A model generated the notes under the pieces. The model saw nothing but the letters and a program-made list of their open reading frames with translations. It had not been told where the DNA came from and did not search any database. Below are positions 11,159 through 50,134 of a DNA stretch of 64,000 nt, piece after piece (within the stretch, counting starts at the first letter, position 1; each line of letters starts with the position of its first letter). The position numbers and the translations under genes were made by a program. This stretch comes from Thuidium tamariscinum (lineage: Eukaryota > Streptophyta > Bryopsida > Hypnales > Thuidiaceae): the NCBI GenBank assembly GCA_947034885.2, contig OX344758.2, positions 15,651,067 to 15,715,066 on the forward strand, in the 5' to 3' direction.

Positions 11159-11523
11159 ATAAAAATGGAATATAAATTCTTTTTTGACTTCTCAAAAAAT
11201 TTAACAAAACATAAGGCCATTTTATAGTAGGTACCAATTCTCAATTGCTTATCAAGTCATATTTAGGTGTAGTTACCTTCATAGAAAATTGGTATTTTGA
11301 AGTAAAAAGAAAATACTTAGATCTAGAGTTAGACAATCATTACAAAAAATTTGGGGTCTCTAGAGGGCCACTTCACAATGACATGTTTCTAGCTATAATT
11401 CTCTATTTCATTGGTGTTAGAAATAGTGACACGTATCTAGCAACCACATCATTTGACTTCTATAATTGCTCTTGAAGTAGCGAACTACACTTTGCTCTCA
11501 TACAAGTTTTGTTATTTTGTTAG

Positions 11524-13517
11524 GCAAAGATAGGAAAACAAAACATTGCATAGGACAATTTAAATTGGTGGACAAGGTCTCTTTCAAGCTTGTTTTAGTA
11601 GGCCTCTAGAAACTTGAAATTGTTTGTAATGCACTCACTTCCAAAGTTCATCTTTGAAGAGCTCAAATTCTTAACCATAGGGGCAATGACATATCCATAA
11701 TTAGGCACATGTACTTGTTGCAAAAATTCAATGAGTATTCCTAAAGGTAGGATCACATAATGGCACTTATTCCATGGATTTTTTCCAATGACTTATTTTA
11801 TTGGGTTGATTGCAAGAAACAATTGTTGATTTGGTTGCATTTTTTATAATACACATACTTTGCATTTTTGAAATATTTTAAAATTAGAAAAATAATTATT
11901 AGTTTAAATTCTTTTTACTAAGGTGTACACCTAAATCTTTAAATGATGTAGGGGTCACCTAGGAAATCATCTTTTCCAAAACCATAGAAATCATTGGTAT
12001 TAAAAAATCCAAAAGTGCACATTTGAAGTCAAAGAACTATAGAAGATCTTCCTTTTCCATCCCTAATTCCGAGGATGAATGCTTGTAGTTTGGTCCTGCA
12101 TTGCAAAACAATCTTGTTCATCAACCAAAAAATAGGTCAAGCATCGTTTATGGGTTAAAGAAGATTGTATCCTAGGAAGATAGAATATATGAAAAGTATT
12201 TAGGTAGGAGAATTGAAACACTACAAAATCTCAAGACTTAGATAGGTAGTTTGATGTTTTAATTTGTATAAAAACTGGAAAAGAAACTAAGAAATTTAAA
12301 TTTTTTGTTAGTTTGTAGTAATCCACAGAGATGGTCATCCGCACCAAAGAACCACCAAAATAATATTTAACATGGTTTGGAATGCAAACAAAAAGAACCT
12401 CACTTTGTAGAATTCTATACAAGCAATTAACTAAATGATTAGAATTGGTTTAGACAATAGTTGCAAGGCTACTAGTTATTTACTCATTTGGAACCAAAAT
12501 GCAAAAGTTATGGCCAAAAGAACAAATTAGTATATGTGTTTCTTGTAATCATCCATTGACAGTTTATCATAAATATAGATCCTTCCTTTCGCTTTTATAC
12601 CATCATTTTAGACAATGTTGATAATTGATGCCTATATTTTAGTGATTCTACACAGTAAACCTGTCACATATGAAGTGTCAAACAATATTCAAGAATTATC
12701 TAATTTTTTAGAGAAATTTATGAATATGAATATTCACAACATTCAGTGAGGTTTTTTTGGCAGTAAGCCTATAACTTTTGCGGAGTATGTCTAATGTACG
12801 TGAAATTTGAAATGAAGGTACATGTAATACAACATATTATAGACTAATAGTTGTAGACAGTGAATAATTTTTAGCATACTTTGAAAATTATTTTAATATT
12901 TTGAAGAGCCTCCAATTAGATGTCTATTTTATTTACCATTTGGAAGTTTTGAATCCTATTTTCAACCTAAACATCAAAATTGAGAGTTGAAAATTGCAAA
13001 AGTAGTTGTTCTACCATGGTTGCCAGTATGTGAGCATAGAAAGTGTGAGCCTATGAGCCTACAATTCTTTACACCTATAATACATGTGTCTATATCATTA
13101 ACACATTCAATGAGTGTAGGATAACCAAATAAAGTTTGGATATATACTAATCAAAAAATACAACAATAATTAGGCTATTTTGACTCTCTGAATGAAAATT
13201 TCCTTTACAAAAAAAACCAATGTCCTTTGAGTTGGTGAAAAATTAGGCTTAAAAATAACATTGTTGAATTCATTGAACCAAAATGGCTTGAAAGACAAAA
13301 AGAAAAAAGAAAGAGGAAGAAGTATAAAGAAAGACATGCTTGTATCTTATCTACATCTTTAGATGGGGAATATCATGGGCATCAAACTAGGCATTGGATT
13401 ATTTAAGTTGAAATATGGGAATTTTTAATTCAACATTTTGAAACTCATTGTTGCATTTAATCTAAAAATATCACAACAAAGTGTTTTTTCAATGTTTTAT
13501 AGATTGTGTTGCATCTC
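11524..13517. other. Nearly identical tract shared with 24,225-26,218
   Basis: By eye I find a single difference (C at 13,374, T in unit 2) across about 2 kb. The 50 bases to the left show about eight differences and the 20 bases to the right about three. The abrupt boundaries suggest that one unit overwrote the other after they had begun to diverge. The tract is non-coding and contains the family-A MITE at 11,804. Confidence 0.75.
11804..12554. mobile_element. Family-A MITE, old copy in unit 1 (751 bp)
   Basis: Ends GGTTGATTGCAAGAAACA and GTTTCTTGTAATCATCC with ATTG on both sides (11,800-11,803 and 12,555-12,558). The interior matches other family-A copies (CAAAAGTTATGGCCAAAA near the right end) but is diverged. 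The same insertion is at 24,505-25,255, so it predates the duplication. No transposase ORF. Confidence 0.85.
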
Positions 13518-13531
13518 TATCTCCATACACA

Positions 13532-13540
13532 TACTGTACT
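13532..13540. other. Probable MITE excision footprint (TACT-G-TACT)
   Basis: At the position of the 732-bp MITE in unit 2 (26,237-26,968, flanked by TACT and TATT), unit 1 has TACT, a single G, then TACT, followed by the same GTACACATACC. Both target duplications and one base matching the element's terminal G remain. This is what excision, rather than absence of insertion, would leave. Confidence 0.65.
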
Positions 13541-13983
13541 GTACACATACCATTGACTGATCACACATGACTTAGCACTCAGTGTCTTTAACTTGTGGAT
13601 ACTAGAGAATTTTAAGTATTTTGGAAATGTTGAATACTAATGAAATTGGTTCCTAGGTACAATTAAAAAATTAAGGATTTATGGAAAAAATTGTGACCTT
13701 TTTCAAATTGAGCTTACAAAGGTTTGTAGCTACTAGGGTAGGCAAACCTAATTCTAGTTGGTCTCCAATGTTGCATCCTATAACAGGACTCTTCACCCTG
13801 CAATGCAAAATTCTAAATCATTTATACTAAATAGTAAAATTGGATGTCTATACAATTAGGTTGTCCTACTCCAAGAAAATTACTCTATAAGCCATCAAAG
13901 TTGACAAAAACTTCAACAAATACTTCCATTTGTACACATGGAGGTTCATGAATTCCAACTACACCAATAACTAAATCAAAAGT

Positions 13984-16900
13984 AGAGCATTCTTATACAG
14001 TAACAATAAATATTTATATAATTTAGAGTGTCAAGAAATTAGTCATGGGCAACCTAATTTCACTATATAGTTTAGTTATTGTTGTACATTCAGTAGGTAA
14101 TGTGTTAGACACCTTTGAGATTAGCTAGATGCTAATTTGAAGGTGGTAGTTAAATTAAATAATGTCTTTATGCATTGTGAGGTGTGTGTGTGTGTGCAAA
14201 CAAAATAAATTGGCGATGGTAATTGTTCACAAATCCATAGATCAATGAATGCTTCTGACATTGTAGAATATTAATTTCAAAGTGATGGGAGCATCAATAT
14301 CAACAATTGGTAGGGGTTGAAATAGGGTCCAATAAAGGTAGGTGTTACATTGAATAATGGTGAGGCTCATGCTAAGGTAAGAGTGATGAAACTGCCTATT
14401 TTTGTAAACAACATTACGCACCTATAGAGTGGCCTACAAGCAATTATAGGCACCTATGACCCCTACCTTTGAACCTTCATAAATCATTTAGCATGCTTTT
14501 TTCCTAAATTCTTTTGTGTCCTTGACCATGCAATCAAAAGGCTAATCCAATGATTGGTTTCTTCAATATCTTGGATTCTTCTAAGTATATAATTTGCTTA
14601 AACAAGTAGGTAACAGTTTACCTACCTTTTGTGAGAACCCCATTGACCTTCACTGAATAATTCAATGAGACTCTTATTTTTTTATAATCTTAACCAAACA
14701 TTTTCTCTTATTCAACATACAATTCAATATGCTTGGTTAACTACTCGTTTATTGCAAGTGTCCGTTCATTGGCACATGTTTGATACATGGGAGTCAAACT
14801 AAAGTAGAATCACCTATAACCAATCATTTAAGGTATTCTAGACATCATCTAGTGTAGTGGAAGGTAAAGCAAATATTTTGAGAAGTGCAATGATAGAAAT
14901 GATGGGGATTGCAAAAATATTGGGAATTTTATCTTATTAATTGATATTACTATAAATTTTAAAAGGCAAAAGGTGCACTGGACCCATTGCCAACTTGTGG
15001 ACTCTTCTAATTCCAATCACATTAAAAAACACTTTTTTATTCACTTTTTTCTACTTTCTCGCACACTACATTGGGACATGTGCCATGAACTTTGAGTCCC
15101 AACTTTGAAAAGTAGAAAAAAACCCATTCTAGCCTTGGTTGGAAATGTATCCATTGATAGGTTGGTTATGGGGGACCGATTGCTTATGGGTGCTTCTACC
15201 TTCACAATTATTTAATGTTAGCGTCACATGGTGAAGGCTCATGAACATAATGCAATGTAGGCAAGCTTAGCATATAAGGGTAAGGTTGTTAGAATCTCAA
15301 ACTCTAAACCCTTGAAACAGGCTGTAATGGGATGTAAGATCCCTAAACCCTAAACCCCACAACTCTTGCCTGTTTTCTTGCTCTGTGGTGTCAGATCAGC
15401 AACTCTTGTGTGTAGTTTCTGCATTGTAAGGTCATATAGACTTGCTGGGTTCCTGCGCTCGGGTTCAATAGCTTTACAATGGTAAAGCCATTTAAAAGAG
15501 TTTCTTATTTTACAATTGACAAAATTTGGAATTTGGCAAGATTGCATTTTAGTGATAGTGAGCTTTACCATGTAGACCTTCATTTTACAACACTGGGATA
15601 TAATGCTAAGTGGACATTTGATCAAAGCCTTACAATTAAATGCCAAGTACCGTACATGAAGGTCTGGTTTGCTGAAATTGAGTTCCACGTTAGATTCTCA
15701 AGGGCCCACATCACTTTCGACCAATCACAAAATGACATGTGTCACTTTTTCCCTTAAAAAATGACTTACTTTTTGCCCAATTTGACCTTTGAGTATGGTA
15801 GTGCAATTTCCTCATTCGTTATGCAGGATAAGCAACTTCATTACAAGATTGAAACGTGGGCCTAACATAAACGTCCTTTACTCTCAATGCAATTGCTTGC
15901 TCCACTGAATAATACAGTGAGCTTTGGACTAAGGTAGCAACACCAATAACCCTCACCCTCACTGTACCCATAATCATCTCGTCTAAAATCTTGGAAAATC
16001 TTGGGAAGTGAATAGATGTGATTACAAGGATGTACTACACTTGAAGTTGAGATCCTAGTGTTGGTATGTGGTGCATTCATTGTTGGCTCTTCAAAAATTC
16101 ACAACTTACACTTAGTGTCCAAATAATACATTTGAAAGTGCATTGAAATTATTTTTCTCTTGCTTGTAGGGTCCAATAATTTGTAGAATGTCTATAGATA
16201 GAAATCATGTTCAAAATCGTTAAATTGATGGTTATGGGTGTTGCTACCTTAAAGCAAGTAAAAATAGTTCCAAGAGACAAACACACCAAAGTATGAGTCT
16301 CTTTAACACATTTATCCTTTAAGGACGGATTGGTAACTATAGAAGTCATCCATTTTGATATTGTAGGAATCATTACTTCAAAAAAAAATCCAAGAGCTCT
16401 TGTTGGAAGTCAAACTATTGTACAAGATTTTCCCTCTTTATACAAATTTTTGAGGATGAATAAGGGAAAAACACCCAATATCGCACTTGTACCATGCATT
16501 GGATCCTAGACTCATCCAAAACCATCCCTAGATTGCAGTTAATGTGTTTTCTAAATGCTTGACTCTAATTTGCTAACACATATTAAGGACACATACCAAA
16601 ATCTAATTGGCTCACTACTAATTTTAGTAGTGTTTAGGTTTGGGGGCATCTATTGAATTGTTTCAGTGGTCTAGAGAGCTAACACTTTAGAAAATTATAG
16701 AAATTACACACGACATCTAAAAATCTATTTTTTTTAATATTTATGATTTTCACTTGCTTATCAAAAAAGAAATATTATTTTTAGAAAAAAGTGCCTCCAA
16801 CTATGTTGGATTTCTTATTTGGACGATTTTGGGTGTTTCCATTGTAGTCATTAGATGTTTTTTGAGGGATTAGAAGACTATTTTAGACCCATTCCTAATG

Positions 16901-17730
16901 TTGTGAACAATCAAAATTGAAAATAAATTTTAAAATTAAAAAATCTTTTAAAAAAATTTAAAATTTAAATAAAATATTATTACTTGATGTGGTAGTCTCT
17001 GTGCCACATTAGATCGCATATGTGGTAGAGTTCCCCAATGTTCCCACATTTGGGAACTCATAGCCTTCTAACCCGCAGAAAACAAAATCTGATGAGTGTA
17101 CTTTTGTCTCACATAAAAAGATTCTTTGTCATTCATCATACCGTAGTAGAAATCCAACTTGGATTGATACAGGTTTTAGACACACAATCTAAACCATCTA
17201 AGACACATATAGATTTTACACCACAAGGTCTGAACTGTGAAAGTGCCTGAGTTGCAGAATAACTGCCATTTTAACAGCATTCCCATTCAGTCTCAAAGTT
17301 TTTTGAAAGTAGGGTAGTTTCTCCTTTCATGACAGGCAAATTGCTCTCTCTCTGACGTCATTTCATGTTACCAGATGCTGATGCAATCAACTCAATCAAG
17401 GTCGGACATCTTCGTGGTAAGTAAGTTGCAGTTCTCATCTTTGGAAAGATTTCATGAAATTGGCACCGCTTGAAGTGTAGCACGTGAAACTGGAGGAATT
17501 TGGGTCAATCAAGGAAATCTAGAGCAAATTTTATTTGAATTCTCCAACTAAAACCTCAAACCGGATGGCTGAACCATAAATCTATAAAAGATTTTGAGGT
17601 TTGAAAATAACAAATACATCCATCCTAAAAAGATTTTTGAATGGATTTTTTGAGCTTGAACAATTGGCATTACAACAAATACATCCATCCTAAAAAGAAA
17701 TTTTGGACCCCATTCAAAACTTTTGGCACT
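13984..17730. other. Unit-1-only segment; no gene recognised
   Basis: 3.7 kb missing from unit 2, where a 350-bp TIR element plus about 200 bp lie instead. Contents: (GT)7 near 14,182; CCCTAAACCCTAAACCCC at 15,340 (two telomere-type repeats); the hairpin GCTTTAC-AATG-GTAAAGC at about 15,470-15,487; and a dispersed-repeat segment at 16,860-17,080. The ORFs of 92-112 codons at 15,350-15,757 overlap on opposite strands and show no domain. Confidence 0.6.
16860..17080. repeat. Dispersed AT-rich repeat, AATGTGG-type
   Basis: GATGTGGTAGTCTCTGTGCC, then ACATTAGATCG, then TGTGG near 17,000 correspond to AATGTGGCAGTGCC...ACATTAGAC...ATGTGGCG at 35,840 and AATGTGGCAGTCTCT at 52,270. The segments before these are poly-A/T-rich in all three. 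Family of unknown class. Confidence 0.5.
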
Positions 17731-17955
17731 TTGGAATGTGCCAATTTGACAAATAGGAGATTTTTTAAGGTGGTTACACCTAATTGCATCAAAATGCACA
17801 ACTATTCTTTAATTTAGAATTTAAATCTATGATAGTCATACTTGTCTTGTGAGATTTGTGTTCACAAAGATGAAGTATACATTGTGATGCAACTAGGTAG
17901 GGGTTTGCAAGTAGATGAGCTTACCTCATATGTTGAATGAAATAGCTTAGTCATT

Positions 17956-18215
17956 TGAGTTATTTGTAAAGTCCCCCCACTTTGGGCATGACTTTTTTTG
18001 AACTTGAGAAGGTAACTATAGTTGAAGCATCAAATTTTTTTGCAAGATACTTATGTCACACGACTTCAAAAGTAGGGACCAAAATTTTTTAGGCACCATT
18101 TTGAAGGAAAAATAACTTTCATACCCACTTTTATTTCGACTTTTTTAACTCAACCAACTTTTTCACAAAACTCATGGGTTTAAACCCCGGTTTATTGTAC
18201 TTTACAAATAACTCA
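17956..18215. mobile_element. 260-bp MITE with 17-bp perfect TIRs, only in unit 1
   Basis: TGAGTTATTTGTAAAGT and its exact reverse complement form the ends. ATT flanks both sides (17,953-17,955 and 18,216-18,218), and unit 2 (about 28,189) has one uninterrupted ATT between the same flanks (CTTAGTC-ATT-GTCATGG). So the insertion came after the duplication, with a 3-bp target duplication. No ORF. The 3-bp duplication fits Harbinger- or CACTA-like groups, but the ends match neither consensus clearly. Confidence 0.9.
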
Positions 18216-18670
18216 ATTGTCATGGTGAATTTTGTTAAAATGACAATCATTCCACAATCTTGGCACTTTTACAATTGAGACTTTGCTGTCTGAAATCTAT
18301 ACCTATCCTAGATGGTTTAGACTGCATGGTCTGAAAATGGCGTATGGAATATCTCCATTTTACCGAAAGTTGCCATTGCCACTCACCGCGAGCTGTTGCT
18401 GGACATGGTTTGTGGCAATTTACCAGTAAAATATTTCATGTTAGTGATTTGGATTCAAGCTCAGATACTCGCATTCCTCGAGAATGGCGTGCTTCAGAGT
18501 GCCAAAATGGTGCTGGTTAGAATACCCTGGTTACATATGAAGTGAATGTTCAAACCAAATCGGCAGAATCCTATCTAAGCAATGAATTCCAATTCAATTC
18601 CACGCTGAACTCCAGTTCAGCTTCAGCTGCTGGTGGTGGAATTAGCCAGCTGCCGCAACTACGCTAACAC

Positions 18671-19360
18671 TCAAGGGTGACCGGGGTACGAGGCCTTGAG
18701 GAGCTTGGCCGTGGCCGCGTCGACGCCGAACGACTTCTCGATCACGGCGCTCGTGATGTTGGGCTCGAAGATTTGGTTGGCGGTCAGCAGCAGCCCCGGT
18801 TTCTGCGACGTCAGCGAGTTGAAGGTGATGGCGGTCTCGTTGCCCACGTTCAGCTGGAAGTGCAGCAACGCGCGTGGAAACAAGATCACGTCGCCCACCT
18901 CCAGCGTGGCCGCGTACAGCACATTGTCGTCGCTGATGAAGCCCGTGTAGATACGGCCCTTCAACACGAGTAGCGTCTCGGCGGCGCGCGGGTGCGTGTG
19001 CAGCGGCACCACGCCGCCCAAGTCGAAGTCCAGGCGTGCGTGCGTGATGCCCTGCGTGTTGAGTCCCGGGAACTGCACGGGCGTGGCCAGCGCCGCGATG
19101 GCCCCCGTGGGCGACTTCTTGACGTCGGAGCTTGGCGCTCGGAAGCCTGTGTACACGAAGTCTTTCGCGGAGACGCTGCTTCGCGGTCTGCATGCGAAGC
19201 CGTTCATGAGAGTCGCCGAGGGCGACAGATCCGCCACGCAGAAGTCTTGCAACGGGTCGGGGTCGGCGTTCGCAGTGCCCACGACCAGCATTACTATTGC
19301 ACAGCCCATGACCAGGATCATGGCGCTTCCTCTTCCCGAGCGGACCATTGCTACAGTCAT
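18671..19360 (-). CDS. Germin-like protein, copy 1
   Basis: Secreted bicupin-fold germin-like protein of 229 residues, single exon. Residues 1-32 form a signal peptide (hydrophobic MILVMGCAIVMLVVG, cleavage likely after ANA). Cys41 and Cys57 match the paired N-terminal cysteines of germins. Box 1 (PLHTHPRAAE, His121, His123, Glu128) and box 2 (GDVILFPRALLHFQLN, His167) give the complete metal-binding set. N-glycosylation sites at NET (174) and NIT (201). Germins are apoplastic Mn proteins, some with oxalate oxidase or superoxide dismutase activity; which applies here is unknown. I chose ATG 19,360 because the longer frame's ATG (19,513) overlaps the TATA box. The gene is GC-rich against AT-rich DNA. 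Differs from copy 2 at residue 77 (Ser here, Gly there). Confidence 0.93.
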   Translation of the reverse strand: MTVAMVRSGRGSAMILVMGCAIVMLVVGTANADPDPLQDFCVADLSPSATLMNGFACRPRSSVSAKDFVYTGFRAPSSDVKKSPTGAIAALATPVQFPGLNTQGITHARLDFDLGGVVPLHTHPRAAETLLVLKGRIYTGFISDDNVLYAATLEVGDVILFPRALLHFQLNVGNETAITFNSLTSQKPGLLLTANQIFEPNITSAVIEKSFGVDAATAKLLKASYPGHP

Positions 19361-19511
19361 CCTTCCCAGCTTATATATCAAGCGATGAATTGAAGACTGC
19401 CAACTGAATTGGCGAAGAGCAGCTAGCAAGGCTAAAAACCGCTTGTGGCTGTGAAGAAAAATGGATGTTGACGATGTTGGAGTGTGAGATTGAATCCCAC
19501 TTTGACGAGCC

Positions 19512-19518
19512 ATTTATA
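19512..19518 (-). promoter_or_regulatory. TATA box of germin-like copy 1
   Basis: On the minus strand TATAAAT lies about 150 bases before the chosen ATG (19,360), directly after a (CA/GT) microsatellite. Transcription would start near 19,485, leaving a 5' UTR of about 125 nt. The microsatellite is one dinucleotide longer than in copy 2. A second TATATAA at about 19,371-19,379 is too close to the ATG. Confidence 0.6.
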
Positions 19519-20022
19519 CACACACACACACTCCGTGGCCCGCGAAATACCTCGCATGTTCGGTCTGATTCTTCACGAGTTCTCGCAGAGTCTGACCCAG
19601 ATCCACCAGTATTGGCATGGAGCCTTCGAGGGAGCCTTCCAGGATAGTGTAACTTGGCGATCCCGACGTCCGTCTAGCTGCACCGAAAGAGCAGGCAAGT
19701 GCTGGCAACTCGTTCGGACGCAGAAAGCAGATTCAATTCATGGGTTCTGCTGGAATTGGTGACTCAATTCACACATGATCGCGTCGGACATGGAAAGGAA
19801 ATCCTTGTGGCGGGCGAGTTGATATTTCATGCACGCGGATAGGATTGAGAGTGAAAATTGTACTTTCAGGGGGAAAAGTCTCCGGGAAGGGGTTATGGAG
19901 ATGCGTTTCGAAGGTGGAGGTGACATTTGTTTCTTCGTGGTAGTGAGAGCGAGCAGCATAGCATGTCAACCCAAGATACAAGTAATTAGATATCCCATGA
20001 GCCGCAGTAGCGCCGAAGGGGT

Positions 20023-20814
20023 CAACCAACAGTTTTTGCAATGGTTTTGTAATACCCCCAATTTTGGTTGAAATAGCCTTGTCATGGTTTTTATTGAGTG
20101 TTGCATTAAATTTGCAATGGTTTGTACTTTTGTAAGGTCTCCAATAGTAGTTTAAATAACTTTGCAATGGTTTTGTTTTCACTATATTGTTCTACATTTG
20201 CAATAGTTTTGTAATGCATGCAATATCGCATAAGCATTGTCCTTCGGAGGCTCCCAGGAAGTATAAAGTGCTTGCCTCTCAATTGCAAGAAATTAACATG
20301 TTCTTCAAGTCTAGAAGAAGTGCAAGTTATGAATATGATACATATATTATACTATATAGTATATTGTATACATGATCGTATATAGTACACAAACGGTATA
20401 TAGTTATGTGTACAATATTGTACAATTAAATATTGAATTGTATTATTACTACTCCGGAGTTCTACATTACAAAATACAGTGGACATGATAACTAAATTTA
20501 ACAAATTTGCTATGATTTTGCAATGACCTTGCAAGAATTTTGCAATGATTTTTCCAATAAACAATTATGTTTTTTACACAATTCTGCATATGAAACTTTA
20601 TGGATTTGTAAATTTAAAAAAATGCAATACAGTGGATTCTATGTCCAATACTTTTGTATTGAATCAATGACAACTTTGCAATGGTTTTTCAATGAATTAT
20701 TTCTCTTCTAAAATCCAAACTCAATTGCGTTACACATCATTCCAGTACAAAACCATTGCAAATGAATTGCTCTGGTGTTGTAATCATTGGATTCTGTTGT
20801 AGTGGGTTATCTAT
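20023..20814. mobile_element. CACTA-like non-autonomous element, only in unit 1 (792 bp)
   Basis: The right end reads CTGTTGTAGTG (reverse complement CACTACAACAG, a CACTA terminus); the left end is CAACCAACAG, a degraded form. GGT flanks both sides (20,020-20,022 and 20,815-20,817). Unit 2 at 31,201-31,212 has GAAGGGGTTATC with one GGT. Copies of TTTGCAATGGTTTT recur in both orientations near both ends, the subterminal-repeat pattern typical of CACTA elements. No transposase. Confidence 0.85.
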
Positions 20815-21265
20815 GTAAGGTTGTCACAATACTTGCGAGGCTGGGGTATTTTCCTAAGAATATCTACATGTCTGGTCGTCACTGGTTGTTCGCGGTAGCC
20901 GTATCAGGAATCCCTCAAAAAGTCTGAGTGCCGTTTCTCCTCTGAGTGCCGTTTTTCCTCCTCTGCGGGTGAAGAAACGGCACTTCTGAAAAAAATTCTC
21001 GCTGAATTTCTCAAAGTGCTTGGCCTAGCGCAAGTGGCGGAGCTCCCACCCAGCTCCGCATGTCAGAAATTCCTTATGAGAATCACTCCAAATGGCATAA
21101 TGGTGTGTCACACCTCCTCCATCTAGATATTCTGGATCGGCTCATGATTGGTTCCACTTTTCTCACTGATTTCTTCAACTTCAAAGAAATTTAGTTCTTG
21201 TAGGAGCTCTGACTACTCCTAATACATAGATTATTGTTTGGCAACAACTTCCTCTCAAAGCAAAG

Positions 21266-22713
21266 GGGTGATTGCAAGAAACACTTGTACTAATTTTTGT
21301 CACATGTTGCATTCTAATTTGTTTTTTGGCCATAACTTTTGCGTTTTGACTCTAAATGACTCAAGATTTATAGAGAAGGTATTCATGACTATTATACACC
21401 TTTCCCTAATTTTTTCATAATTTTTAAAAATAATATGTCATCGAAAAATAGACCCCAATTGAATGTCACAATTGCCAATTTGAAGTTTTTTAGTAATATT
21501 TAGTAACCAAGAAAACAAATTTTGAGGTGAAATTTGGATGAGGTGGTCTTCTAATAGACTTGTAGGTAGTGGTTGAAAGAATTTTAAAAATAATTAATTT
21601 TGTGTGGTATAGAAGTCTACAAATTGAGCCTCTTTGGATCATTGCAAGAAACACCTGTCCTATTTGTTGCGTTTTGCAACAGTACTCATGAATTTTTCAG
21701 GAGTACTATAAAATTAGAAAACTAATTTTAAAAAAATTTAAAAAATAGGAAAAATTTATATACCTCTAAAATGAAGGTTTTCTCCAAAGGAAATTGATAG
21801 AAAAATTCTCTAAGTAGGAGAACTTGAAAAGTGCCAAATCTCAAGAAAATAGGTACTTTGATTCAAAAATTAGGGAAAAATAGTAAAAATAAGTATTTTC
21901 AAAAAATAAAAAGTGACCATTTGCAACAACTTTATGGAGATGGTCATTCACAAAAAAACCCACCAAAATAATATTTTATATGTTTCAAAATACAAGCAGA
22001 AGGGAGATCACTTTGTAGATCTCTACACCTCACAAAATTAACTTTTCTTAAAAATCCTTCCTTGGAGAGCTAGAAATCTACTAGAAGACCATCTCATCCA
22101 AATTTCATCTCAAAATAATTAAAAAAAGGTATAGCTTAGGTACTAAAAACCCCTAAACTGCCAAGTGTGACATCCAATTTGGGTCTATTTTTGGATAGTA
22201 AACTATTTTTGAAAATTATGAAAAAATCAAGGAAGGTGTACAATAGTTATGAGTACCTTCTCTATAAATCTTGAGTCATTTGGAGTTAAAACACAAAAGT
22301 TATGGCCAAAAAACTGATCAGCATGCAACATGTGACACAAAATAGTACAGGTGTTTCTTGCAATGACCCCTTTCTACTTGTATTTTGAAACATATAAATT
22401 TTTTTTACTAATATATATGTTGTTACAAATGGTTAGTTTTTATTCTTTGTATTCATTTATTTTTACTATTTATAATTAATTTAAACATCAAAGTACCTAT
22501 TCTCTTGAGGTTTGGCACTCCTCAAGTTCTCATACTTGGAGAATTTCTCTATGCATTTCCTTCCCCAGGTACCTTCATCTTATAGGTGTTTACATAAGTC
22601 ATATTTTTAATATATTTTTTAAATTATTTTTCTAATTTTAAAGTACTCCAGAAAAAGTCATGAGTATTGTTGTAAAATACAACAAATAATACAAGTGTTT
22701 CTTACAACCACCC
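21266..22713. mobile_element. Family-A MITE interrupted by a second copy (unit 1)
   Basis: Ends GGGTGATTGCAAGAAACAC and GTTTCTTACAACCACCC, with AAAG at 21,262-21,265 and 22,714-22,717. Without the inner element (21,636-22,369) and its CTTT duplication the outer copy is 710 bp. The orthologous, uninterrupted copy is 31,965-32,683. Non-coding. Confidence 0.92.
21636..22369. mobile_element. Nested family-A MITE (734 bp)
   Basis: Ends GGATCATTGCAAGAAACACC and GGTGTTTCTTGCAATGACCC. CTTT occurs on each side (21,632-21,635; 22,370-22,373), and the unit-2 copy has a single CTTT (32,332-32,335) in the same context (GAGCTT-CTTT-CTACTTG). This proves insertion with a 4-bp target duplication after the tandem duplication. 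It lies in opposite orientation to the outer element. Confidence 0.95.
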
Positions 22714-22717
22714 AAAG

Positions 22718-23859
22718 ACCCTCGATGATAGGAACATATCATTGTCATTGTCACTCCAAGTGCATCTCTTATAGTGTATGAAAAAATAGAAGTGAATAGA
22801 TTGGAATGAAGGAAAAAACTAATTGCAATTAACCCCTATATTTTGAAGGCATTTTTTGAGTTTTTAGAAATTTTCTCTAAATTGAAAAAAAGTCAACAAT
22901 TTGATACGCTTGATCAAATTTTTTGGCAAGTAATTGCACAAATTCAATCTAGACATGTAAGAGATCACTTAGAAAAAGAAAACTCAACAATTTCACTTAT
23001 AGATTGAAAGATTATAATGTTTGATCATGAGGGTGTTAAAAGTGCAAAAGTGAGTTGAAGTCTTTTGATCCTCTTTTTCCATGTCAAATCTATAAAGTTG
23101 GTCACCAAAGAAATATGAAGTGAAAAGGTCTAATATGCATAACTCTAGTTTATTTATGGCTTCTCAAAACCTACTCTACAAGTTTGTTAAATAAATTTCT
23201 AATGTAGTTTTTTCTCCAAGATCTAATTTATATTTGAGGCTCATTTCTAAGAGCCCTCAATGCTATAGAAGGCCAAGACATCCTTATACAAAATCTTAAA
23301 TAGAAAAATCATAATCAATCATTTCATAATCAAATTTTTAATGCTAAAACTAGACTTCAAAAAGAAGTTTTTAAAAATCTTAAATATTGATTAAAGTAAC
23401 TTCATTATGTTTTATTTAAATTCAAGGTTTTACAACATTAAATTTTGGTGCCTTAGGTATTTAGGGGTTAGAGCCTTAGAGGAACTTGCACTTGGTTTGG
23501 ACTCCTTCTTAAAATGGACCTGTATAGTTACTTGCCTTAACCCATAAATGATGCGAGGGCCATTTTCTAGTTGATGAATGAGAGAGTATCTTGCTATGTA
23601 GGATAGAAGTGCAACTATTCATCCTTGGATCAGGGATGAAAAGGGAAGATTTCCTATTATAGTTTGACTTCCTTTTGAATATTACTAAGCCAATGATTTA
23701 CATAGTATCAAAATTGGTGATTTCTATAGCCAGCAATGCATTGTTTATAAATTAAATGTATTGTATGTGTTCAAGATTGCATGTGTATAATTACATTTAT
23801 TTTTAGCAATTTGAAAATTTAAATTCTTAGTTTATATGTATAGAATCCTTTTCAAAGGT
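22718..23859. other. Non-coding tail of unit 1
   Basis: Aligns with 32,688-33,827 at roughly 95-97% by eye, with small indels. No ORF above background and no recognisable gene. Confidence 0.7.
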
Positions 23860-24504
23860 ATAAAAATGGAATCTAAATTCTTTTCTGATTTCTCAAAAAA
23901 TTTAACAAAACATTAGGCCATTTTATAGTAGGTACCAGTTCTCAATTGCTTATCAAGTCATATTTAGGTGTAGTTACCTTCATAGAAAATTGGTATTTTG
24001 AAGTAAAAGGAAAATACTTAGCTCTAGAGTTGGACAATTATTACAAAAAATGTGGACTCTCTAGAGGGCCACTTCACAATGACATGTTTCTAGCTATAAT
24101 TCTCTATTTCATTGGTATTAGAAATAGTGACAAGTATCTAGCAACCACATCATTTGACTTCTATAATTGCTCTAGAGGTAGCCAACTTTACTTTGCTCTT
24201 ATACAAATTTTGTTAGTTTGTTAAGCAAAGATAGGAAAACAAAACATTGCATAGGACAATTTAAATTGGTGGACAAGGTCTCTTTCAAGCTTGTTTTAGT
24301 AGGCCTCTAGAAACTTGAAATTGTTTGTAATGCACTCACTTCCAAAGTTCATCTTTGAAGAGCTCAAATTCTTAACCATAGGGGCAATGACATATCCATA
24401 ATTAGGCACATGTACTTGTTGCAAAAATTCAATGAGTATTCCTAAAGGTAGGATCACATAATGGCACTTATTCCATGGATTTTTTCCAATGACTTATTTT
24501 ATTG

Positions 24505-25255
24505 GGTTGATTGCAAGAAACAATTGTTGATTTGGTTGCATTTTTTATAATACACATACTTTGCATTTTTGAAATATTTTAAAATTAGAAAAATAATTAT
24601 TAGTTTAAATTCTTTTTACTAAGGTGTACACCTAAATCTTTAAATGATGTAGGGGTCACCTAGGAAATCATCTTTTCCAAAACCATAGAAATCATTGGTA
24701 TTAAAAAATCCAAAAGTGCACATTTGAAGTCAAAGAACTATAGAAGATCTTCCTTTTCCATCCCTAATTCCGAGGATGAATGCTTGTAGTTTGGTCCTGC
24801 ATTGCAAAACAATCTTGTTCATCAACCAAAAAATAGGTCAAGCATCGTTTATGGGTTAAAGAAGATTGTATCCTAGGAAGATAGAATATATGAAAAGTAT
24901 TTAGGTAGGAGAATTGAAACACTACAAAATCTCAAGACTTAGATAGGTAGTTTGATGTTTTAATTTGTATAAAAACTGGAAAAGAAACTAAGAAATTTAA
25001 ATTTTTTGTTAGTTTGTAGTAATCCACAGAGATGGTCATCCGCACCAAAGAACCACCAAAATAATATTTAACATGGTTTGGAATGCAAACAAAAAGAACC
25101 TCACTTTGTAGAATTCTATACAAGCAATTAACTAAATGATTAGAATTGGTTTAGACAATAGTTGCAAGGCTACTAGTTATTTACTCATTTGGAACCAAAA
25201 TGCAAAAGTTATGGCCAAAAGAACAAATTAGTATATGTGTTTCTTGTAATCATCC
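24505..25255. mobile_element. Family-A MITE, unit-2 copy of the 11,804 element
   Basis: Same 751-bp element at the same site (ATTG at 24,501-24,504 and 25,256-25,259). Identical by eye to 11,804-12,554 because it lies in the near-identical tract. Confidence 0.85.
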
Positions 25256-26236
25256 ATTGACAGTTTATCATAAATATAGATCCTTCCTTTCGCTTTTATA
25301 CCATCATTTTAGACAATGTTGATAATTGATGCCTATATTTTAGTGATTCTACACAGTAAACCTGTCACATATGAAGTGTCAAACAATATTCAAGAATTAT
25401 CTAATTTTTTAGAGAAATTTATGAATATGAATATTCACAACATTCAGTGAGGTTTTTTTGGCAGTAAGCCTATAACTTTTGCGGAGTATGTCTAATGTAC
25501 GTGAAATTTGAAATGAAGGTACATGTAATACAACATATTATAGACTAATAGTTGTAGACAGTGAATAATTTTTAGCATACTTTGAAAATTATTTTAATAT
25601 TTTGAAGAGCCTCCAATTAGATGTCTATTTTATTTACCATTTGGAAGTTTTGAATCCTATTTTCAACCTAAACATCAAAATTGAGAGTTGAAAATTGCAA
25701 AAGTAGTTGTTCTACCATGGTTGCCAGTATGTGAGCATAGAAAGTGTGAGCCTATGAGCCTACAATTCTTTACACCTATAATACATGTGTCTATATCATT
25801 AACACATTCAATGAGTGTAGGATAACCAAATAAAGTTTGGATATATACTAATCAAAAAATACAACAATAATTAGGCTATTTTGACTCTCTGAATGAAAAT
25901 TTCCTTTACAAAAAAAACCAATGTCCTTTGAGTTGGTGAAAAATTAGGCTTAAAAATAACATTGTTGAATTCATTGAACCAAAATGGCTTGAAAGACAAA
26001 AAGAAAAAAGAAAGAGGAAGAAGTATAAAGAAAGACATGCTTGTATCTTATCTACATCTTTAGATGGGGAATATTATGGGCATCAAACTAGGCATTGGAT
26101 TATTTAAGTTGAAATATGGGAATTTTTAATTCAACATTTTGAAACTCATTGTTGCATTTAATCTAAAAATATCACAACAAAGTGTTTTTTCAATGTTTTA
26201 TAGATTGTGTTGCATCTCTGCCTCTATACACATACT

Positions 26237-26968
26237 GGGTCATTGCAAGAAACACCTGTCATATTTTGTGTGACACGTCGCATTCTAATTTGTTTTTTTG
26301 CCATAACTTTTGTGTTTTAGCTCCAATGGACTCAAGATTTGTAGAAAAGGTACTCATAATTATCATGAACCTTCCATAATTTTTTCATAATTTTCAAAAA
26401 TATTTTACTATCCAAAAATAGGCCCCAATTGGATGTCACACTTGGTAGTTTAGGGGTTTTCAATACCTGAGCTATACCTTTTTTTAATGATTTTAACATG
26501 AAATTTGGATGAGATGGTCTTCTAATAGACTTCTAGCTTACCAGGAAAGGATTTTAAGAAAAAGTTAATTTTGTGAGGTGTGGAGGTTTACAAAGTGAGC
26601 TCCCTTCTGTTTGTATTTTGAAACATATAAAATATTATTTTGGTGGTTTTTTTTGTGAATGACCATATCTATAAAGTTTTTGCAAATGGACACTTTTTAT
26701 TTTTTGAAAATATCTATTTTTACTATTTTTCCATAATTAAAACATGAAGGTATGTATTTTCTAGAGGTTTGGCACTTTTCAAGTTCTCCTACTTAGAAAA
26801 TTTTTCTATCCATTTCCTTCGGTGAAAACCTTCATCTTAGAGGTATATATACTATTTATATTTTTGAAGTTTTTTTAAAATTAATTTTCTAATTTTAAAG
26901 TACTCCCGAAAAAATCAGCCAAATGCAACAAATAGGACAAATAGGACAGGTGTTTCTTGCAATCACCC
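26237..26968. mobile_element. Family-A MITE, unit 2 (732 bp), absent from unit 1
   Basis: Ends GGGTCATTGCAAGAAACACC and GGTGTTTCTTGCAATCACCC, flanked by TACT (26,233-26,236) and TATT (26,969-26,972). The interior contains the family motif GCCATAACTTTTGTGTTTT. The corresponding unit-1 site keeps two TACT copies separated by G (13,532-13,540). No transposase ORF; non-autonomous. Confidence 0.93.
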
Positions 26969-27418
26969 TATTGTACACATACCATTGACTGATCACACAT
27001 GACTTAGCACTCAGTTTCTTTAACTTGTGGATACAAGAGAATTTTAAGTATTTTGGAAATGTTGAATACTAATGAAATTGGTTCCTAGGTACAATTAAAA
27101 AATTAAGAATTTATGGAAAAAATTGTAACCTTTTTCAAATTGAGCTTACAAAGGTTTGTAGCTACTAGGGTAGGCAAACCTAATTCTAGTTGGTCTCCAA
27201 TGTTGCATCCTATAACAAGACTCTTTACCCTGCAATGCAAAATTCAAAATCATGTACAATAAATTGTAAAATTGGATGCCTATACAATTAGGTTGTCCTA
27301 CTCCAAGAAAATTACTCTATAAGCCATCAAAGTTAACAAAAACTTCAACAAATACTTCCATTTTTACACATGGAGGTTCATGAATTTCAACTACACCAAT
27401 AACTAATTCAAAAGTAGA

Positions 27419-27768
27419 GGGTGTTTGCATGAAAAACTTGATAGTGTGGTTGCGTTTTGCTTTTGGAGCGCTATAACTATTGATGTATGAATCCAATGCA
27501 AAACAAAAAAATATATTTCTAAAAATCTTGACAAAAATTGTATTCTTTACTTTTCAAAATTTTTTAAAAATCATTTTATATTTAAAAGTTAATTTTGTTA
27601 ATTTATCACACTTTGACATAGTGGGGTTTTTAGTACTATTGAGCGGTTAAAATTAATTTTTTTAGCTGAAATTTCTATGTTATATTCTCTTAGTAGGTAT
27701 ACATGTTTCTACCAAAGGAAATCTAAAAATACATTATTTTATATCCTCCACATTCGTGCAAACAGGCC
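27419..27768. mobile_element. 350-bp TIR element, unit 2
   Basis: Left end GGGTGTTTGCATGAA; right end, read inverted, GGCCTGTTTGCACGAA, about 13 of 15 positions matching. It starts where similarity to unit 1 stops (after AAAGTAGAG, 13,983). The interior is AT-rich without a transposase. Target duplication not clear, perhaps because the right flank was deleted. Confidence 0.65.
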
Positions 27769-28483
27769 TTCTTTGCACGTGCAATTCCAAACATTAGAAA
27801 TGGTTTTGACCTCATCTTTTTAATCAAATAGCATCACAAAAAAGTCTTCCCAAATTGCTGGTTTTTACTTTTGTTGAAAATTGTTTTTCCTATTTTCTAC
27901 AAATTAAAACGTTAAAGCATGTATTTTCTAGGACATTTTTTGGACAAGGAGTTTTGTTCTACAAAAGAAATTTTGGAATGTCCCAATTTGACAAATAGGA
28001 GATTTGTTAAAGTGGTTACACCTAATTGCATCAAAATGCACAATTATTCTTTAATTTAGAATTTAAATCTATGATTGTCATACTTGTCTTGTGAGATTTG
28101 TGTTCACGGTATACATTGTGATGCAACTAGGTAGGGGTTTGCAAGTAGGTGAGCTTACCTCATATGTTGAATGAAATAGCTTAGTCATTGTCATGGTGAA
28201 TTTTGTTAAAATGACAATCATTCCACAATTTTGGCACTTTTACAATTGAGACTTTGATGTCTGAAATCTATACCTATCCTAGATGGTTTAGACTGCATGG
28301 TCTGAAAATGGCGTATGGAATATCTCCATTTTAAGGAAATTTGCCATTGCCACTCTCACTGCGAGCTGTTGCTGGACATGGTTTGTGGCAATTTACCAGT
28401 AAAATATTTCATGTCTGTGATTTGGATTCAAGCTCAGATAGTCGCATTTCTCGAGAATGGCGTGCTTCAGAGCGCCAAAATGG

Positions 28484-29696
28484 TGCACCAAACAAGGACT
28501 GGCACAGATCTGAGGTTCGGAAGACAGGAACTTCAATTTCGCTAACTTGGCGAAAATTCAAGACTTCGGCAGTTTTAAAGGGCGAAACTCTGCTATGGTT
28601 CGTTTGTTCATCTGTCTGGGTTTTGAACAATCCAATTTTTTTTTCCAGCTCTATTTCTGAAAGTGTCAGCATTCATTTGTGAAACTATGCCAATGAATTC
28701 AAAATACTTAAATTTGTAGGACATTACAACTTCCGAATACGACCCACCATGAAGGATTAATACGGAGGACGAAGAATTTCTCAAGTCCAGTAGATCTAAA
28801 CGTCGAAATCCATACGTACATTATCATAGCCCATGCTCATATAATTTGTTGGGTCCAGGTTGTCAGGATGATTAACCTTGTCCGCAGTATTCCACTTCTA
28901 TTTTCTTCTGTTTTCTCCAGATCTTTAAAGAAAAGGCTCCAATCTGACATGAATGGGTGTGCGTGGAGGAAAACATCGATTTCCATGAGCTTACAAGCAG
29001 GAGGAAATAATTCTCATCAGGTCATATGTGATGTACTAATAAACTTTCCGCTAGTCATGACTGTCACGATTCTCGCAATTTTATCATTCAAGCACATTCG
29101 GCGAATGATTCAAGTTCGAAGCTCATAAACTGGCAGGCACCTGCCTAGCTAGTGATTATTCCAAGCTCCCAAATGGGTAATCAAAGTTGCTAATGGACGT
29201 CAATTTCGTGAAATGAATAGAATCGGCGGATTTCCACGACTCTGACAAATTTCCGGGGGCATGGACTGGAAACGTCAACCTATAGGCCGGAGTCCAAATT
29301 GAAGAGCTCTGTGCGGCTGAATGTCACCATTTTGGCGCCCCGAATCGTCCCAATTTGGTGTAATTGACGATTCTATTGCAAACTGAGGAGGAAGTAATTT
29401 CTACGGAGACGAAATCTGCTTGAATGATCAGTGTGATTGCAATGTATGTCACCAATACTGAACTCTGATCCCGAATTGATGCAGCATTTTGTATGCACTA
29501 AAAAAAACTAGAGGGCCTCAATATTCCTTTGGGAAATTACAATAATCTCGGACATCGGAGCTCATCAGCTCACTTGACTGAACAAGTAACGCACCACTTA
29601 TTTGTGGAGCACACACCCAGTTCAGTGGAACGATTTCAGGCAACACCAAACTGCTGGTGGATGTCACTGCCTTTGAATGGAATAGATTACTAACTT
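28484..29696. other. Unit-2-only 1.2-kb segment
   Basis: Lies 3' of germin-like copy 2 and is missing from unit 1, where AAAATGGTGC is followed directly by TGGT and TAGAATACC. ORFs of 60-113 codons (28,315-29,128) are present but show no known domain. Base composition is less AT-rich than the surroundings. It may be ancestral sequence deleted from unit 1. Confidence 0.6.
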
Positions 29697-29850
29697 ATAG
29701 AATACCTTGGTTACATATGAAGTGAATGTTCAAACCAAATCGGCAGAATCCTATCTAAGCAATGAATTCCAATTCAATTCCACGCTGAACTCCAGTTCAG
29801 CTTCAGCTGCTGGTGGTGGAATTAGCCAGCTGCCGCAACTACGCTAACAC

Positions 29851-30540
29851 TCAAGGGTGACCGGGGTACGAGGCCTTGAGGAGCTTGGCCGTGGCCGCGT
29901 CGACGCCGAACGACTTCTCGATCACGGCGCTCGTGATGTTGGGCTCGAAGATTTGGTTGGCGGTCAGCAGCAGCCCTGGTTTCTGCGACGTCAGCGAGTT
30001 GAAGGTGATGGCGGTCTCGTTGCCCACGTTCAGCTGGAAGTGCAGCAGCGCGCGTGGAAACAAGATCACGTCGCCCACCTCCAGCGTGGCCGCGTACAGC
30101 ACGTTGTCGTCGCTGATGAAGCCCGTGTAGATACGGCCCTTCAACACGAGCAGCGTCTCGGCGGCGCGCGGGTGCGTGTGCAGCGGCACCACGCCGCCCA
30201 AGTCGAAGTCCAGGCGTGCGTGCGTGATGCCCTGCGTGTTGAGTCCCGGGAACTGCACGGGCGTGGCCAGCGCCGCGATGGCCCCCGTGGGCGACTTCTT
30301 GACGTCGGAGCCTGGCGCTCGGAAGCCTGTGTACACGAAGTCTTTCGCGGAGACGCTGCTTCGCGGTCTGCATGCGAAGCCGTTCATGAGAGTCGCCGAG
30401 GGCGACAGATCCGCCACGCAGAAGTCTTGCAACGGGTCGGGGTCGGCGTTCGCAGTGCCCACGACCAGCATTACTATTGCACAGCCCATGACCAGGATCA
30501 TGGCGCTTCCTCTTCCCGAGCGGACCATTGCTACAGTCAT
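29851..30540 (-). CDS. Germin-like protein, copy 2
   Basis: Tandem paralogue of 18,671-19,360: 229 residues, one exon, and the same signal peptide, cysteine pair, His/His/Glu/His metal ligands and glycosylation sites. It differs in the protein only at residue 77 (Gly instead of Ser). The other coding differences I see (for example at 18,797/29,977 and 18,867/30,047) are synonymous. The reading frame and the cupin core are intact in both copies, so both look functional. The upstream region with the TATA box is preserved. The 3' flank differs because unit 1 lacks 28,484-29,696, so expression of the two copies may have diverged. Antisense frames in this GC-rich gene are also open but are shadows. 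Confidence 0.93.
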   Translation of the reverse strand: MTVAMVRSGRGSAMILVMGCAIVMLVVGTANADPDPLQDFCVADLSPSATLMNGFACRPRSSVSAKDFVYTGFRAPGSDVKKSPTGAIAALATPVQFPGLNTQGITHARLDFDLGGVVPLHTHPRAAETLLVLKGRIYTGFISDDNVLYAATLEVGDVILFPRALLHFQLNVGNETAITFNSLTSQKPGLLLTANQIFEPNITSAVIEKSFGVDAATAKLLKASYPGHP

Positions 30541-30691
30541 CCTTCCCAGCTTATATATCAAGCGATGAATTGAAGACTGCCAACTGAATTGGCGAAGAGC
30601 AGCTAGCAAGGCTAGAAACCGCTTGTGGCTGTGAAGAAAAATGGATGTTGACGATGTTGGAGTGTGAGATTGAATCCCACTTTGACGAGCC

Positions 30692-30698
30692 ATTTATA
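30692..30698 (-). promoter_or_regulatory. TATA box of germin-like copy 2
   Basis: TATAAAT on the minus strand, in the same place relative to the ATG as in copy 1, next to a (CA/GT) tract two bases shorter. Confidence 0.6.
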
Positions 30699-31555
30699 CA
30701 CACACACACTCCGTGGCCCGCGAAATACCTCGCATGTTCGGTCTGATTCTTCACGAGTTCTCGCAGAGTCTGACCCAGATCCACCAGTATTGGCATGGAG
30801 CCTTCGGGGGAGCCTTCCAGGATAGTGTAACTTGGCGATCCCGACGTCCGTCTAGCTGCACCGAAAGAGCAGGCAAGTGCTGGCAACTCGTTCGGACGCA
30901 GAAAGCAGATTCAATTCATGGGTTCGGCTGGAATTGGTGACTCGATCAATTCACACATGATCGCGTCGGACATGGAAAGGATCGAAATCCTTGTGGCGGG
31001 CGAGTTGATATTTCATGCACGCGGATAGGATTGAGAGTGAAAATTGTACTTTCAAGGGGAAAAGTCTCCGGGAAGAGGTTGTGGAGATGCGTTTCGAAGG
31101 TGGAGGTGACATTCGTTTCTTCGTGGTAGTGAGAGCGAGCAGCATAGCATGTCAACCCAAGATACAAGTAATTAGATATCCCATGAGCCGCAGTAGCGCC
31201 GAAGGGGTTATCTATGTGGGGTTGTCACAGCACTCGCGAGGGTGGGATATTTCCCTGAGAATATCTACATGTCTGGTCGTCACTGGTTGTTCGCGGCAGC
31301 CGTACCAAGAATCCCTCGAGAAGTCTGAGTGCCGTTTCTTCTCCTCCGCGGGTGAAGAAATGGCACTGAAAAAAATTCTCGCTGAATTTCTCAAAGTGCT
31401 TGGCGTAGCGCAAGTGGCGGAGCTCCCACCCAGCTCCGCATGTCAGAAATTCCTCTGTCACACCTCCTTCATCTAGAATTCTGGATCGGCTCATGATTGG
31501 CTCCACTTTTGTCACTGATTTCTTCAACTTCAAAGAAATTTAGTTCTTCATGAGA

Positions 31556-31901
31556 GAAAATGTGGACTCTCCAGAGGGCCGTCTAACTTTGACAAGCCGA
31601 TCTATATAAAGATTTATGTGTAAGTCTGATTTCTTTATAAAGTACTCGATTTCTAACAGAAGATGTGGTTAAGCTTGTGTGAATATCTTCACTACCACGC
31701 AGAATATGTCAGTTTTTACAGCTTTCGTCTAATCAAATTGAAGAGCTTGTATTTCGAAGCTCTAATGTTTGGCTGCATTGTTGAGCACATGACACTTGTA
31801 CATTACAGCTATAGGGGAAATATTCTGCGTCATGTTAAATAAATGTAATGAGGGGTCCCTTCGGCCACTTCTTAGCGGCCCTCTGAAGAATCCAGATTTT
31901 C
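31556..31901. mobile_element. 346-bp TIR element, unit 2 only
   Basis: Left end GAAAATGTGGACTCTCCAGA, then GGGCCG. Right end, read inverted, GAAAATCTGGATTCTTCAGA, then GGGCCG; 23 of 26 positions match. The corresponding part of unit 1 (21,200-21,216) is short. A related left-end motif (GTGGACTCTCTAGAGGGCCA) is found at 24,053. Non-coding. Confidence 0.65.
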
Positions 31902-31964
31902 TTTAATCTATGTACTCCTAATACATAGATTATTGTTTGGCAACAAATTCCTCTCAAAGCAAAA

Positions 31965-32683
31965 GGATGATTGCAAGAAACACTTGTACTAATTTTTGTC
32001 ACATGTTGCATTTTAATTTGTTTTTTGGCCATAACTTTTGCATTTTGGCTCTAAATGACTCAAGATTTACAAAGAAGGTATTCATGACTATCATACACCC
32101 TTCCCTAATTTTTTTCGTAGTTTTTAAAAATAATATATTATCCAAAAATAGACCCCAATTGAATGTCGCAATTGCCAATTTGGACGATTTTAGTAATATT
32201 TAGTAACCAAAAAAATAAATTTTGGGGTGAAATTTGGACAAGGTTGTCTTCTAATAGACTTGTAGGTAGTGGTCGAAGGAATTTTTAAAATAATTAATTT
32301 TGTGTGGTATAGAAGTCTACAAATTGAGCTTCTTTCTACTTGTGTTTTGAAACATATAAATTTTTTTTGCTAATATATATGTTGTTACAAATGGTTAGTT
32401 TTTATTCTTTGTATTCATTTATTTTTATTATTTATAATTAATTTAAACATCAAAGTACCTATTTTCTTGAGGTTTGGCTCTTTTCAAGTTCTCATACTTA
32501 GAGAATTTTTCTATTCATTTCCTTCCCTAATCCCTAGGTACCTTCATCTTAAAGGTGTTTATGTAAGTCATATTTTTAAATATATTTTTTAAATTATTTT
32601 TCTAATTTTAAAGTACCCTAGAAAAAATCATGAGTATTGTTGTAAAATGCAACAAATAGTACAAGTGTTTCTTACAATCACCC
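31965..32683. mobile_element. Family-A MITE, uninterrupted (719 bp), unit 2
   Basis: Unit-2 counterpart of 21,266-22,713 without the nested copy. Ends GGATGATTGCAAGAAACAC and GTTTCTTACAATCACCC, flanked by AAAA. The intact CTTT at 32,332-32,335 is the empty site for the nested insertion. Confidence 0.9.
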
Positions 32684-33827: not shown

Positions 33828-34237
33828 ATAACAAGACGTGTGGGCCCCAAAGAGTCACCTACAAAATCATGTATTGAAAAAACTTGGAACTACAATAAAA
33901 AATAATTTTTTACAATAATTAGTTTCTTACTATAACATTGAAAATAACTATACATGTGCAACAATGTAGACTATTGTTAGACTATTTATAATGAATACTT
34001 AATGTCTAAATTTTTTTTGGGCATGGCCAATCTTTGCAACATCTTTTAGTAAATAGCTAGAGGTTGAACTTGTTGTTATTCTAGCATAAGTTTCATTGTA
34101 GAATCCTTTATTTGTTGAATTGAAATTTGTGAAAACTCAAAGGGTAGATCCTTCCAATCATCATTATATAAGTTGAATATCACTTTGAATTGATAAGCTT
34201 GAAATGATGATAGTTTACTAGAAAGCATTAGGTCAAT
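33828..34237. other. Intergenic; nothing recognised
   Basis: Begins immediately outside the duplication border. AT-rich, no gene, no structured repeat seen. Confidence 0.6.
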
Positions 34238-34599
34238 GGGTGATTGCAAGAATGGCCTCCCATTTTTTGTCTCATTTTGAAATAGTACTCATTTTTTTCA
34301 AGAGTACTTTAAAAATAGAAAAGCAATTAAAAAAAAATGAAAAATATGTTCAATGTATATTTCTTGAAGAAGAAGGTACTCTATGAAGGAAAAGTGAAGT
34401 AAAATTTTCTAAGTAGGTGAACTAGACAAGTGCAAAATATCATGAAAATGAGCACTTTTACATTTTTATTTGTAAAAAATAGGAAAAGACATTTTTGAAA
34501 AAAGTAAAAATTTTCAATTTGGGAAGGATTAATGGTGATGAGATTTCTCCAAAAGAATAATTTTGAATCCATTTTCAATGCCCTTTCTTGCAATTACCC
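34238..34599. mobile_element. Short family-A derivative (362 bp)
   Basis: Ends GGGTGATTGCAAGAATGG and CCTTTCTTGCAATTACCC, flanked by CAAT and CAAC. About half the usual length, so internally deleted. No ORF. Confidence 0.75.
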
Positions 34600-50101: not shown

Positions 50102-50134
50102 CATGTCCGAAAAGCTCACATGAGGAGAGCTTAC

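Follow-up and report, generated by a model that had tools for sequence, protein, structure and literature searches.

We report that the first of two tandem germin-like units in the analysed DNA (the window, 64,000 nucleotides, C10:15651067-15715066) reads TACT-G-TACT exactly where the second unit holds a 732-bp MITE, here called A. We propose that unit 1 carries the footprint of an excised element; leaving the order of events aside, we give this reading a probability of about 0.58. The value, like the lower one behind our wording for slippage, is a judgement with the four-unit tree taken in and not a computed one. The observation itself is correctly described, excision is the probable mechanism for the unit-1 scar, and excision of a MITE with a footprint is an ordinary, well-known kind of event. 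About 150 kb off lies another array of these germin-like units, in inverted orientation (C10:15486000-15527999); its units are called 1', 2' and 3'. The features at issue are the following.

11159..23859, plus strand: tandem unit 1, with a germin-like gene at 18671-19513 on the minus strand
23860..33831, plus strand: tandem unit 2, with a germin-like gene at 29851-30693 on the minus strand
13532..13540, plus strand: TACT-G-TACT of unit 1, a putative excision footprint, five bases longer than the single-TACT site of unit 2'
26233..26236, plus strand: left 4-bp target duplicate of A, TACT
26237..26968, plus strand: MITE A of unit 2, 732 bp, non-coding, longest stop-free frame 66 aa, 30-bp TIRs 93% alike
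26969..26972, plus strand: right 4-bp target duplicate of A, TATT (one change)

Reading the window sequence confirms the doubled target that the original prediction had described: 13532-13540 of unit 1 is TACTGTACT, two copies of TACT, at 13532-13535 and 13537-13540, separated by G at 13536, in the context CATACACATACTGTACTGTACACATACC. Unit 2 does hold the 732-bp MITE at the matching point, as TACT / element / TATT, and by alignment unit 1 is indeed one base longer than the joined unit-2 flanks. The right duplicate of A has one C>T change, absent from that prediction, which makes it TATT. Both target duplicates are kept in unit 1 at a site now without an element, and the doubled target coincides to the base with the position of A in unit 2. 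This site is also the only length difference between units 1 and 2 in 2829 aligned bases (11159-13987). As a bare string, TACTGTACT is not rare in the window: it occurs twice (0.25 expected; at least two in 4 of 100 shuffles), any 4-mer followed by one base and the same 4-mer is found at 529 of the 64,000 positions, and there are eight period-5 runs of at least 13 bp. The distinctive feature of TACT-G-TACT is its location exactly on the insertion point of A, not the string itself.

A is a member of a MITE family, abundant in the genome, that duplicates 4 bp at its target and shows no fixed target sequence. The family's ends read GG(G/A)T(G/C)ATTGCAAGAAACAC..., with TIRs of 30 bp. The other members in the window are listed here without strand.

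21636..22369: family member B, unit 1 only, TSD CTTT/CTTT; CTTT occurs once at the vacant sites of units 2, 1' and 2'
21266..22713: older family member holding B, TSD AAAG/AAAG; the same insertion as C, both ends also in units 1' and 2'
31965..32683: family member C, unit 2, TSD AAAA/AAAA; the same insertion as 21266-22713, used as clock control
51236..51954: family member D, TSD AGAT/AGAT
36708..37437: family member E, flanks TATT/TGTT
34238..34599: short relative F, flanks CAAT/CAAC
11804..12554: older relative G, TSD ATTG/ATTG; further occurrences at 24505-25255, in unit 2' and in truncated unit 3'

Seven distinct insertions with family ends are thus present in the window; the flanking 4-bp repeats are perfect in four (B, D, G and the older element around B, known as C in unit 2) and have one mismatch in three (A, E and F). 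The ten genome copies fetched with their flanks all have perfect 4-bp repeats (TTGG, AACT, AGGT, CATA, TGCT, GTGT, ACAC, CTAA, CCCT and TGCA). One copy with TSD TGCA, at C2:5876625-5877368, has flanks resembling another element's end and is perhaps a nested insertion. When the genome (363 Mb, 19 contigs) was searched with A, 40 places, A included, were scored among 6565 first-look candidates, and the other 39 measure 718-725 bp and share 92-94% identity with A; with B, 40 places, B included, were scored among 6167 candidates, the best relative being 97% identical. Stop-free frames in the seven window copies tested span 47-78 aa (66 in A), and 500 shuffles of A gave a longest frame of 62 aa on average and 127 at most. 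The family is accordingly MITE-like in every respect considered: short, non-coding, with TIRs and a TSD, and with many similar copies, the relatives being about 723 bp. As expected for a plant, the TIR pattern had no matches in the viral contigs and genome contigs collections, nor did the right-flank pattern in the viral contigs collection. A literature search met no report of A's family, which may nevertheless have been published.

The second array contains unit 1', in which everything left of 13120 is deleted or rearranged, unit 2' and a truncated unit 3'; unit 1' begins at the counterpart of 13120, and unit 3' stops at 13112, short of the A site. The tandem junction is common to both arrays, which places the tandem duplication before the copying of the array. 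Judged by structure and diagnostic substitutions, unit 2' is the sister of unit 2. Parts of 13988-17729, a unit-1-only segment, are present in unit 1', and the unit-2-own segments 27420-27971 and 28487-29697 are matched in unit 2'. The large segments 13988-17729 and 28487-29697 separate unit-1-type from unit-2-type copies. Four substitutions in 13603-13987, the block on the right of the site, pair 1 with 1' and 2 with 2', and none support other groupings. Over four non-element blocks (1870 columns), 13 sites favour 1+1'/2+2' and nine favour 1+2, all nine of which fall in the last block, where the count is 5 against 9. Units 1 and 2 are grouped by 22 sites against 1 in the germin-like gene; in the block on the left of the site, seven sites, of which 13517 is the last, group them and none oppose it. 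We read both as exchange within arrays. Since units of one array exchanged sequence in blocks X0, X1 and X5, these were excluded from the clock; the Bout/C blocks were counted separately from non-element sequence, and BLAST hits were dropped below 80 bp, at or below 150 bp, below 150 bp or below 200 bp, depending on the comparison.

The germin-like genes of units 1 and 2 have a Cupin_1 domain, and the nearest solved chains to the unit-1 protein are oxalate oxidase; such genes make a land plant the most likely source of the DNA. Upstream of the gene there are two 4-bp GATC/TCGA differences (19764 and 19798 in unit 1; 30944 and 30980 in unit 2); this pair is in unit 2 and absent from unit 1, the first being also in 1' and 2' and the second also in 1'. 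Elsewhere in the window, Rfam at the gathering threshold gave a tRNA as the only match.

50030-50102: tRNA-Asp (GTC) gene

Further evidence comes from the vacant sites. The ancestral empty site had been predicted as CATACTGTACACATACC, and exactly this sequence is present in unit 2' (C10:15500898-15500914, minus strand), a comparison made among paralogous units of the same genome. There the site reads CATACACATACTGTACACATACC, with a single TACT, in a paralog where precise excision would look identical. A never-inserted site was also expected to have one target copy, which is borne out by unit 2' at the A site and by element B, whose site has one CTTT in each of units 2, 1' and 2'. Because unit 2' has a single-TACT site, the five extra bases of unit 1 are derived. 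An element of another family supplies two further controls: a 260-bp TIR element with TGAGTTATTTGTAAAG ends and TSD ATT lies at 17956-18215 and is shared by units 1 and 1', and its vacant site has one ATT in both units 2 and 2' (2/2). In total, 5/5 vacant control sites have a single target copy, and a vacant site with two copies is therefore the exception here. A itself is present in unit 2 only. Unit 2' is clean, and unit 1' is deleted across the site: it has no counterpart of 13529-13602, the deletion starting 8 bp left of the junction and having ATAC at both ends, a 4-bp microhomology.

We propose the following for unit 1. A non-coding element of the 4-bp-TSD TIR family would formerly have stood at TACT in the unit-1 lineage; a transposase supplied in trans would have cut it out; and end joining would have kept both 4-bp target copies together with one G, probably the element's own terminal base. 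Two routes may lead to this state. First, the element's insertion may predate the tandem duplication, in which case units 1' and 2' would have lost the element too. Second, the element may have been shared later between units 1 and 2, through interlocus exchange or haplotype recombination, and then excised from unit 1. The borders of A, the 4-bp duplication rule, the single TACT in unit 2' and the five extra bases exactly at the junction are read directly. From them we infer the former presence of an element in unit 1, its cutting, the joining and the transposase.

Of the original prediction's mechanism, excision from unit 1 is likely, with five extra bases at the insertion point of A, and stays unproven in that a tandem duplication of TACTG gives the same letters. 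A transposase acting in trans is reasonable, because the seven window copies have frames of 47-78 aa only and B was inserted after the split of units 1 and 1'; Pfam gave no transposase for the 8 of 17 window ORFs of at least 120 aa that were submitted. The kind of scar has precedent in rice DNA transposons: among 94 excisions, 8 left just two target copies, 58 had added bases (1 to 123) and 43 had a flanking deletion, according to the counts given in that report (PMC4423477). Against excision stand the seven differences between units 1 and 2 in the 177 bp right of a near-identical tract described below (13518-13694). This is ordinary divergence, thus a recent transfer of A with its flank into unit 1 is not visible. 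Given the tree, the excision reading costs either additional losses or a transfer of A by exchange between units 1 and 2. When excision and slippage were first compared, before the four-unit tree, the probability of excision came out at 0.16-0.98 depending on assumptions, which included a chance of 0.01-0.1 of exactly TSD+G+TSD per excision and a five-fold boost for slippage.

The strongest competitor is slippage, which we hold possible but less likely than not. Here A entered unit 2 only, after both duplications, and unit 1 gained an extra TACTG with no element involved, so that one insertion and one small indel suffice on the tree. The ancestral TACTGTAC contains TAC twice, five bases apart, which invites slipping, and the unit-1 letters form a perfect 13-bp period-5 run, one of the eight in 64 kb. 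A 7-bp near-tandem gain in unit 2, at the place matching 22562, also speaks for it. However, slippage must land by chance exactly on A's target, which we put at about 0.0004-0.006, assuming that units 1 and 2 differ by 1-3 tandem-like indels of 4-7 bp in every 5078 unconverted bases, and the four-unit data make tandem gains rarer still. Units 1 and 2 have 16 length differences in 7073 aligned bases, and the only exact 5-bp tandem in this set, at 23757, reflects a loss in unit 2, TGTAT being found twice in 1, 1' and 2' and once in 2. Across the 38 length differences of the four-unit alignments, no exact tandem duplication of at least 3 bp was flagged; two near-tandems among the 38 went unflagged, namely the 7-bp gain of unit 2 and a TAAG that unit 1 alone lacks.

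The original prediction had further placed A before the tandem duplication, with later excision from unit 1; with A kept in unit 2, this order also calls for precise excision from unit 2' and for loss together with flanking bases from unit 1'. This exact order is a version of the excision reading, and its share, counted within the probability given above, makes it a rather unlikely account. In its favour, this single position is altered in three of the four units, the deletion of 13529-13602 in unit 1' has parallels in the rice set, where flanking deletions often accompany excision (43/94, PMC4423477), and A is more diverged than any of the 30 relatives chosen for closeness to it. Nevertheless, the empty and clean site belongs to unit 2', sister to unit 2, and the simplest history has A entering unit 2 alone once both duplications had taken place. 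Were A older than the duplications, three separate losses would be needed, by footprint in unit 1, by deletion in unit 1' and precisely in unit 2', where two other insertions of the family show none. The older element holding B keeps both ends in units 1, 2, 1' and 2', and G keeps both in units 1, 2, 2' and 3' (unit 1' is truncated there), in each case all four units in which the site was found. On these paralog comparisons, the predicted order is not required and is somewhat disfavoured.

Dating bears on the same question. Set against the majority of 30 relatives, A shows 33 substitutions, of which 14 are strictly private; these relatives were chosen for closeness to A, and two of them are identical copies. 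All 30 are less diverged from the majority and have shorter terminal branches than A, whose ML terminal branch is 0.047, or 0.045 with three B relatives added. In a three-copy comparison of 719 columns, private substitutions number 29 for A, 53 for B and 41 for D. As a clock, C has 28 unit-2-private changes in 710 bp since the split of units 2 and 2', with 11 more on the internal branch, and unit 1 has 6 private changes of 710 since its split from 1'. By this substitution clock A looks about as old as the duplications, its divergence straddling their age. B was dated by the same method with the 3 nearest of its 39 scored relatives and gave 0.0225, against about 0.008. B must be younger than the split of units 1 and 1' and yet is over-dated; thus the dating of A does not decide. 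If anything, it leans toward a late insertion of A once B serves as the check, which is a further point against the predicted order.

Two weaker alternatives remain. If the ancestral site had already read TACTGTACTGTAC, with the element inserted into an existing duplication (named beforehand as what would refute the prediction), nothing except unit 1 itself would speak for it; the one TACT of unit 2' contradicts it, and the unit-2 flanks are one base shorter than unit 1, where a 4-bp duplication would lengthen them, so we regard it as very improbable. Random deletion of the element from unit 1 without a transposase has no supporting point and is next to negligible, since it must remove 731 of the 732 element bases and no target base, and repeat-mediated loss would leave one TACT.

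Excision from unit 1 remains our preferred reading, and a feature immediately to the left of the site needs to be considered alongside it.

11524..13518 against 24225-26219: near-identical tract of units 1 and 2, 1 difference in 1995 bp, flanks 4-6% divergent

When 44 differences were scattered at random over 2829 sites in 20000 trials, the longest such run was 930, and unit 2' differs at 87 positions across the tract. The tract is probably a recent exchange between units 1 and 2, as its near-identity suggests. Its right end lies between 13517 and 13519, 18 bp left of the insertion point of A, and these 18 bp contain three differences. An excision break would be expected to convert the bases nearest to it. 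The bases nearest the site are unconverted, so the tract gives weak support for a break, and its end is explained simply by a conversion tract stopping at a large heterology. Naming the donor of the tract from distances was dropped because the tract contains a fast-evolving element. A fuller scenario, in which a high-copy 4-bp-TSD MITE family outside the five usual plant superfamilies excises itself from germin units, the break leaving the scar and starting the 2-kb exchange, is improbable.

One more private insertion is probably present in the second array. In unit 2', at about C10:15494853-15495933, two inverted family-like ends about 1.08 kb apart have TAGG on both sides, and unit 1 reads a single GTAGGAGC at about 21200.

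The locus is a worked example of the limits of a footprint argument: the case looked settled from the local sequence, the predicted ancestral site was found, and yet the sister paralog makes the inferred order of events unnecessary. If excision is true, it would document cut-and-paste activity in a plant MITE family that is abundant and duplicates 4 bp of its target.

The TSD is 3 bp in PIF/Harbinger, 2-3 bp in CACTA and 8 bp in hAT. With 4 bp without fixed sequence, A's family departs from the TSD rules of the usual plant MITE superfamilies, including Stowaway, whose target duplicate is TA. A 4-bp TSD belongs to the Sola superfamily, which is reported from Physcomitrella, a moss (PMC10741241). 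A's family is likened to Sola by its 4-bp target duplications and TIRs only, as these are described there (PMC10741241); no transposase is linked to the family, and the label Sola was not adopted. The closest parallels for the scar are the excision footprints of plant MITEs and transposons, namely Stowaway at the Triticeae beta-amylase locus (PMC1925063) and the rice elements (PMC4423477). There, former presence is judged from many orthologs or from two species, whereas here it is judged from paralogous units of one genome, one of which, the sister unit, is clean. As in those systems, presence and absence are compared at homologous sites, and target duplicates are likewise kept around a few terminal bases or a short filler, much like the TACT-G-TACT of unit 1.
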